This document shows, piece by piece, positions 26,077 to 27,088 of a stretch of DNA of 64,000 bases. This stretch comes from Pyrodictiaceae archaeon. GTDB taxonomy: Archaea; Thermoproteota; Thermoprotei_A; Sulfolobales; Pyrodictiaceae. Below the pieces are notes generated by a model. It made no database searches. It saw only the letters and a list, made by a program, of their open reading frames with translations, and had not been told where the DNA came from. A program made the position numbers and the translations under genes. The first letter of the stretch is position 1. Each line of letters starts with the position of its first letter. The DNA lies in assembly GCA_027036135.1 (NCBI GenBank), contig JALVSY010000016.1, forward strand, positions 124,001 through 188,000. The letters are read 5' to 3'.

Positions 26077-26090
26077 TTTAAAAATAAAAG
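26077..26090. promoter_or_regulatory. TATA-like element, usable for psmA (-) and for a + strand RNA
   Basis: TTTAAAAATAAAAG about 40-50 bp from psmA start; also upstream of the 26.1-26.4 kb non-coding region. Confidence 0.45.
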
Positions 26091-26137
26091 CATTTCTAGA
26101 ACCCGCCTAGGTTCAAGTATTAAACACGCTGCCAAGC

Positions 26138-26216
26138 ATTCTTCATAGCGGAGCCGGTGATGACGAGTCCGAAAACAGAGACAATAGGCCGCTATGAAGA
26201 ATCTTCTCGCCCCTGA
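26138..26216 (+). ncRNA. Candidate C/D-box-like sRNA overlapping a perfect 14-bp inverted repeat
   Basis: C box GTGATGA 26157-26163, D'-like CAGA 26176-26179, C'-like TGAAGA 26195-26200, D box CTGA 26213-26216; 12-nt C-D' and C'-D intervals; IR ATTCTTCATAGCGG 26138-26151/CCGCTATGAAGAAT 26189-26202. Confidence 0.4.
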
Positions 26217-26264
26217 GGCACGACAAGTTAATGAGAACCCTTCTCTTATACCATTGCATCTCGT

Positions 26265-26309
26265 GGGCCTCTCGGGTGCCACCGGGCCCCAGACACCCAC
26301 AGCCGTGGG
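26265..26309. other. GC-rich nested hairpins in non-coding DNA (candidate structured RNA)
   Basis: GGGCC 26265-26269/GGCCC 26285-26289 enclosing GGTGCCACC 26275-26283; CCCAC 26296-26300/GTGGG 26305-26309. Confidence 0.35.
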
Positions 26310-26348
26310 CTGGATGAAGGGGCCTGCGCGCATCTATGTCACAATACA

Positions 26349-26424
26349 CTACTAGTCGTGATGAGCGCGTCCTTCGTGCAGAGCCAAGGGCGATGAAAGT
26401 AAGGCCCCATTGCTGAACAAGTAG
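26349..26424 (+). ncRNA. Candidate C/D-box sRNA
   Basis: GTGATGA 26358-26364, CAGA 26379-26382, CGATGA 26391-26396, CTGA 26413-26416 (59 nt C to D); flanks CTACT/AGTAG can pair. Confidence 0.5.
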
Positions 26425-26449
26425 CTAGGGAAGAAGCAGGCTTGGTAAT

Positions 26450-27088
26450 ATGCAGAGACGTGTCTCCAGGGTACTCCGCGCCCTAAGAAAGAGCGCGAAA
26501 AAGGGTCGCCCTTGCCTCGGCATAGTTGTTATTGCTGGCTTAGCGCGCTTAACGCCCTCCGAGACTTGGGCAGCCGTGGAGGAGCTTGAGGCGAGGGGCC
26601 TAGCCCGGATAAGTGGTGATCGTGTTTGCTATACTGGCGCTCTTGATCGCGTTGAGGAGGTCTCCCTAGGCCCTCTTATTAGCCGTGTATTGGAGCGTAT
26701 TCGTTCTAGGCGCGACATAGTTCATAGCGCTGAGGTGGTTAGGGGCTCTATACCCTTTGTGGATATTGTTATCGCTAGACGTGACGGCATTGTCTTCCTC
26801 GTGCGTCTAGTGAAGCGGGAGCCACCTGAGCGCCTAGTAGCTATTGCAAGGAAGCTAGCCAAGGTAGCTAGACGTGTCGCAGGAGACAAGGAGGAGTTAC
26901 CGATAGGGCGTTTAGCCCCACGAATCATCGTACCAGTGTTAGTGAGTGAGCACGGGGCCCCAAGGATAATCGAGGGCGTAGTCTTTAAGCCTACTGAGAA
27001 GCTTTTTGAGCTCGTGCTTAACCCCTGGCCTGAGATAAATCATCCACTTACCCGAGTCTATAGAGTTCATCAGAGTTCTTCTACATAG
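26450..27088 (+). CDS. Hypothetical protein, possible N-terminal winged-helix-like region
   Basis: 212 aa; TPSETWAAVEELEARGLARISGDRVCYTG resembles wHTH; rest unassigned. Confidence 0.6.
   Translation: MQRRVSRVLRALRKSAKKGRPCLGIVVIAGLARLTPSETWAAVEELEARGLARISGDRVCYTGALDRVEEVSLGPLISRVLERIRSRRDIVHSAEVVRGSIPFVDIVIARRDGIVFLVRLVKREPPERLVAIARKLAKVARRVAGDKEELPIGRLAPRIIVPVLVSEHGAPRIIEGVVFKPTEKLFELVLNPWPEINHPLTRVYRVHQSSST

Follow-up and report, generated by a model that had tools for sequence, protein, structure and literature searches.

A cluster of three predicted guide RNA genes, two of the C/D box type and one probably H/ACA-like, upstream of psmA in Pyrodictiaceae

Pyrodictiaceae grow near the upper temperature limit of life, and in the genome of one of them a gap separates psmA, which starts at about 26038 on the minus strand according to the reading-frame listing of the window (the whole stretch of 64,000 nucleotides that was analysed), from a hypothetical gene on the plus strand (26450-27088), whose start at 26450 forms the right flank of the gap. 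The question is what this gap encodes. An earlier note, made from the letters of the DNA, had proposed that it holds no credible ORF and that one or more stable RNAs are made there. Searching the query 26100-26449 against 39 relatives, we obtained two close full-length matches and, in more distant genera, three separate blocks with unconserved spacers between them; an alignment of the psmA upstream regions of 14 genomes recovered these blocks as well, though not every genus has kept all of them. The psmA gene itself is 98% identical to that of two Pyrodictiaceae metagenome assemblies, and the conservation of the three blocks within the family goes far beyond chance, as does the covariation of guides with their targets. 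Boxes, conservation, guide-target pairing, covariation and the presence of a fibrillarin gene were computed, and the gap is very probably a cluster of three small guide RNA genes on the plus strand, with sRNA1 and sRNA3 of the C/D box type and sRNA2 probably H/ACA-like (Table 1). We strongly infer that stable RNAs would be made from it.

Table 1. Features of the gap between psmA and the downstream gene, in window coordinates
Feature	Position	Strand	Remarks
TATA-like element	~26078..26091	-	A/T-rich TAAAAAG-type, kept in 14 aligned psmA upstream regions
Possible cluster TATA box, GTATTAAA	26117..26124	+	~28-35 nt before sRNA1; restricted to the three closest species
Perfect 14-bp inverted repeat	arms 26138-26151, 26189-26202	.	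3' arm overlaps sRNA1 (C' box and beginning of the D guide)
sRNA1, predicted double-guide C/D box sRNA	26152..26219	+	conserved in 10 aligned genomes
sRNA1 boxes	C 26157-26163; D' 26176-26179; C' ~26193-26199; D 26213-26216	+	GTGATGA; CAGA; TATGAAG; CTGA
sRNA1 D' guide	26164-26175	+	fifth base before D' (G26171) opposite 23S C2606
sRNA1 D guide	26201-26212	+	fifth base before D (C26208) opposite 23S G2056
sRNA2, K-turn hairpin, probably H/ACA-like guide	26263..26345	+	model R3 match E 4.6e-15
sRNA2 parts	upper stem 26284-26290/26319-26325; 26292-26294; 26313-26317; 26341-26343	+	stem; GAC; GATGA; ACA
sRNA3, predicted double-guide C/D box sRNA	26355..26419	+	conserved in 13 aligned genomes
sRNA3 boxes	C 26358-26364; D' 26379-26382; C' 26391-26397; D 26413-26416	+	GTGATGA; CAGA; CGATGAA; CTGA
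sRNA3 D' guide	26365-26378	+	fifth base before D' (T26374) opposite 23S A52
sRNA3 D guide	26401-26412	+	fifth base before D (C26408) opposite 23S G121

Both sRNA1 and sRNA3 carry a box C of the form RUGAUGA and a box D CUGA near their ends, joined by a short terminal stem. The internal C' and D' boxes are present in both RNAs in degenerate form (CGATGAA and CAGA in sRNA3), and a canonical CTGA D' box occurs in the sRNA1 of G013 and G008. The GCC/GGC terminal stem of sRNA1 is 100% paired in the ten sequences and shows one compensatory change, and the stem of sRNA3 contains two covarying pairs, one of them found as C-G, U-A and G-C, a covariation as high as this being reached in 0/500 shuffles. 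In the window, the sRNA3 model matched with E 9.8e-20 and the sRNA1 model, which includes the window copy itself, with E 3.5e-20; models R1 and R2 gave one match per RNA in near relatives and weaker matches in other families of the order. The two C/D-like box sets noticed earlier are both real, being the boxes of sRNA1 and sRNA3, and the expectation of stable RNAs was borne out in that three separately conserved units lie within the interval 26130-26424, two of them with the features of C/D box sRNAs including covariation with rRNA. Compensatory covariation in relatives, which the earlier note had named as a test, was found both between guides and rRNA targets and in the terminal stem of sRNA3.

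The covariation between guides and targets is the main evidence for guide identity: the guide follows a changed 23S target at three of the four sites (2606, the 2056 region and 121), and at the fourth, A52, G-C replaces a G-U pair. The D guide of sRNA1 forms 11-12 base pairs with 23S GGGCGAGAAGA(C), a pairing that, by the fifth-nucleotide rule, would place a methyl group on G2056 (E. coli numbering). The sRNA1 relative of G007, at 1693837-1693887, carries the guide CTTCTCTCC instead of the home CTTCTCGCC, and the rRNA of that genome reads GGGAGAGAAG instead of GGGCGAGAAG, matching the altered guide, with the compensatory change located next to the 2056 site (target GGGAGAG, guide CTCTCC). A second match in the same genome, at 340583, lies inside a coding region and was discarded as chance, the former being the genuine copy. 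The D' guide of sRNA1 pairs with 23S at C2606 over 8-9 bp in Pyrodictiaceae; taken alone, it is mostly no better than shuffled guides (20-26/100 shuffles equal it in this genome and most Pyrodictiaceae), and when the whole genome was searched with the pattern of its target, matches were no more frequent than in the control. Support for this guide stems from other families and not from the home pairing alone. G044 and G088, both complete genomes from another family, have GGTCGGTCTC in the rRNA in place of GGTCGGACTC, and their sRNA1 relative carries the guide GAGAGACCGACC in place of the home GAGTCCGA, resulting in an 11-bp match to the rRNA. Owing to this compensatory change, together with the prediction of a guide for 2606 in all six thermophiles of a published survey, the C2606 assignment can be considered settled, and the coupling of C2606 and G2056 in one double guide appears common to other families of the order. 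In G088 and G044 (L191 and L192) the 23S rRNA genes extend over ~3.86 kb, as against 3.1 kb, which hints at introns or inserts.

In the home genome, the 16S rRNA and the first ~930 positions of the 23S rRNA read N, and the two sites of sRNA3, A52 and G121, were tested on G004, a genome of the same genus, and on genomes of the same family. The D' guide forms 12 bp at A52 including one G-U, which a T to C change in G007 converts to G-C, leaving all pairs Watson-Crick; a related guide in G035 also pairs at this site. At G121 the D guide forms 10-12 bp, and in G007 the rRNA reads GGGACC vs GGGGCC and the guide GGTCCC vs GGCCCC, a compensatory change. The two target sites are ~70 nt apart, and the joint score of two sites within 100 nt was reached by 0/150 shuffled guide pairs. 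Compared at the level of the guide sequences, the D guides found in G020, G040 and G074 (AAGTCCCATTG) are similar to the one for G121.

For sRNA1 and sRNA3, the C/D and C'/D' box pairs would form K-turns bound by L7Ae, on which Nop5 and fibrillarin would then assemble; each guide would base-pair with 23S rRNA, and the nucleotide opposite the fifth guide base upstream of box D or D' would receive a 2'-O-methyl group. The predicted products are Cm2606 and Gm2056 for sRNA1 and Am52 and Gm121 for sRNA3 (E. coli numbering), while sRNA2 would probably guide pseudouridylation by Cbf5 as an H/ACA-like RNA. We infer transcription, RNP assembly and the methyl marks, as well as all that is proposed for the function of sRNA2. 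The genome contains a full-length fibrillarin gene (PF01269, E 7.5e-107). Position 2606 of the 23S rRNA lies in the peptidyl transferase centre, and sRNA1 would extend the archaeal 2606 mark that is widely predicted and couple it with G2056.

Among the sites named in the main text of a survey of six thermophilic archaea, 23S C2606 is the one predicted to be guided in all, by the Cm/Um2606 guides Iho sR6, Mka sR3, Pca sR30, Tte sR152, Sac sR13 and Neq sR10 (PMC4644070). sRNA1 shares with this set, as described there, the box layout, the size of 65-68 nt, the double guides and the target C2606, and Iho sR6 and Mka sR3 likewise address 2606 by the D' guide (PMC4644070). It differs from the set in its degenerate D' box, CAGA, and in its partner site, which is G2056, whereas the survey gives C2807 for Iho and G2908 for Mka in its own alignment numbering; the survey's main text lists no partnering of C2606 with G2056 (PMC4644070). 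Compared with archaeal C/D sRNAs that target 23S domain I, sRNA3 has the normal layout, and related guides occur in other families of the order. According to the main text of the same survey, much of domain I has a low methylation density (PMC4644070), and the main text of the published surveys yielded no named equivalent of sRNA3. Judged by sequence, the locus would hold two C/D box sRNA genes with good support and, probably, one gene for an H/ACA-like RNA, which are additions to a known type of RNA.

The assignment of sRNA2 is less direct. It is conserved in nine genomes as a seven-pair stem flanked by GAC and GATGA, with 97% of the pairs kept, and around this stem an invariant 5' GAC and 3' TGA read as a K-turn in the sequence. 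We consider sRNA2 a candidate, and probably a member, of the H/ACA-like pseudouridine guides. Like Pyrobaculum sR203-sR210, as these are presented in the main text of their description, it is a single hairpin with an embedded K-turn and no clear lower stem (PMC4652768), and in the home genome its ACA follows the stem after 15 nt, where the rule for ACA or ANA is 14-15 nt. Unlike them, it falls below the cut-off of the Rfam PyrR families (14 bits against PyrR210, where the cut-off is 59), its ACA lies at ~11 nt in another genus (g2), and none was found in G004. In the home genome the seven pairs together with an A-A and two G-A oppositions amount to ~10 layers, against about 10 expected between the pocket and the sheared G-A pairs, but the pocket boundary is not fixed. 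Three target candidates were considered, the U at 23S position 1255, the U at 16S position 1410 and the U aligned to E. coli 23S C1967, and none was convincing; U1255, the best site by the pocket rule, was reached by 3/60 column permutations, and several genomes have mismatches there. A consensus fold with an outer stem was set aside, as it depends on a doubtful alignment register.

Alternatively, sRNA2 could be a K-turn RNA of other function, e.g. a chaperone pairing with 23S rRNA or a processing element bound by L7Ae, which we regard as possible, if on the unlikely side. In genera g2 and g4, 13 bases of its 3' strand are perfectly complementary to 23S GUUCCGGCGCGCA, adjoining the U aligned with E. 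coli C1967, the 5' strand is unpaired beside this U, and the ACA spacing varies; however, 8-11/200 shuffles also reach 13 bases, within the home genus the complementarity is down to 7 and 5 bases, and the layout of stem, K-turn and ACA fits the Pyrobaculum H/ACA-like RNAs (PMC4652768). It would be a rather improbable proposition that sRNA2 represents a K-turn family outside the H/ACA pocket rule, its 3' strand holding the 23S rRNA just upstream of 1967, as an assembly chaperone or an unusual guide within a conserved cluster of C/D sRNAs. Distant matches in family f4 (E 0.03-0.05) may be relatives of sRNA2. Three genomes of family f4 (L198, L199 and L200, ~1501-1573) have in common, within AT-rich flanks, a GC-rich hairpin with GGGATGAAAGGGGCTTGCGCG, which is similar to the 3' half of sRNA2 and has in addition a GAGUC/GACUC outer stem.

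The three blocks sit in a divergent promoter region with a conserved TATA-like element, and they could act in cis as a leader or promoter region for psmA or the downstream gene, with the RNA-like features being incidental. This is very unlikely, considering that two psmA regions (L027 and L028) keep the TATA-like element and have none of the three RNAs, that in G007 and G012 sRNA2 and sRNA3 adjoin unrelated genes at another locus, between a phosphoglucomutase-like gene and a gene for a predicted membrane protein, and that the guides covary with rRNA; the relocated copies and the rRNA covariation largely refute it. In G006 and G008, sRNA3 lies on the opposite strand and converges with sRNA1, and in G013 and G015 sRNA2 is absent from the cluster. 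Because sRNA3 is inverted or relocated in relatives, its conservation does not follow from that of the genes on either side, and the inversions, relocations and losses together define the RNAs as independent units and not as psmA regulation. The moved and inverted copies imply that guide genes travel as units while their rRNA targets stay fixed. At the G007 and G012 locus (L011 ~1408-1482; L013 on the reverse strand), a further C/D-like RNA is seen between sRNA2 and sRNA3, with the sequence GGCTGTGAGGA...CTGA...CCGATGA...CCGAGCC and guides that look alike in both genomes.

The TATA-like motif at the left edge of the gap, which the earlier note had listed among the features of the locus, is present and is most likely the promoter of psmA on the other strand, since it persists in relatives that lack the RNAs and its spacing fits psmA. 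The perfect 14-bp inverted repeat observed earlier is likewise real, but it is not part of a shared structural core: it is perfect in G000 and G001, has one mismatch in G002, and is missing from G004, although that genome belongs to the same genus, and from those beyond it, being confined to the three closest species. Speculatively, it might mask sRNA1 in a precursor.

The gap could also encode one long structured RNA, such as RNase P, SRP or another known RNA, in place of three guides, as it forms a continuous 270-nt stretch with a fairly stable fold; with the blocks independently lost, inverted and moved, and zero Rfam families at cut-off, we consider this extremely unlikely. The Rfam check that had been suggested thus came out empty above cut-off at both curated and permissive settings, and in the gap it recovered none of the three RNAs, returning only sub-threshold C/D and H/ACA matches at permissive settings; a tRNA scan of the whole window found none. 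For Pyrodictiaceae, the cluster would add two methylation guides whose prediction is secure, and a third guide that is probably H/ACA-like, where Rfam finds nothing. The folding-energy z-score was -1.95 when the whole region was taken, -2.7 in the inverted-repeat segment and -0.4 in the GC-rich hairpin; the GC-rich hairpins pointed out earlier are indeed present, but folding energy by itself counts for little as evidence. A small protein-coding gene on either strand is practically dismissed, as the open frames of 53-110 aa in the mechanical listing are not preserved among the four nearest species, where they are broken at differing places, in line with the earlier view that the gap has no credible ORF, and the spacer lengths between the RNA blocks vary freely.

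The downstream gene (26450-27088) had no Pfam match, and counterparts were found only inside the family, in 9/29 relatives and three genera. Its N-terminus is reminiscent of a winged helix, as is VDIVIARRDGIVFLVRLVK of a degraded nuclease motif.
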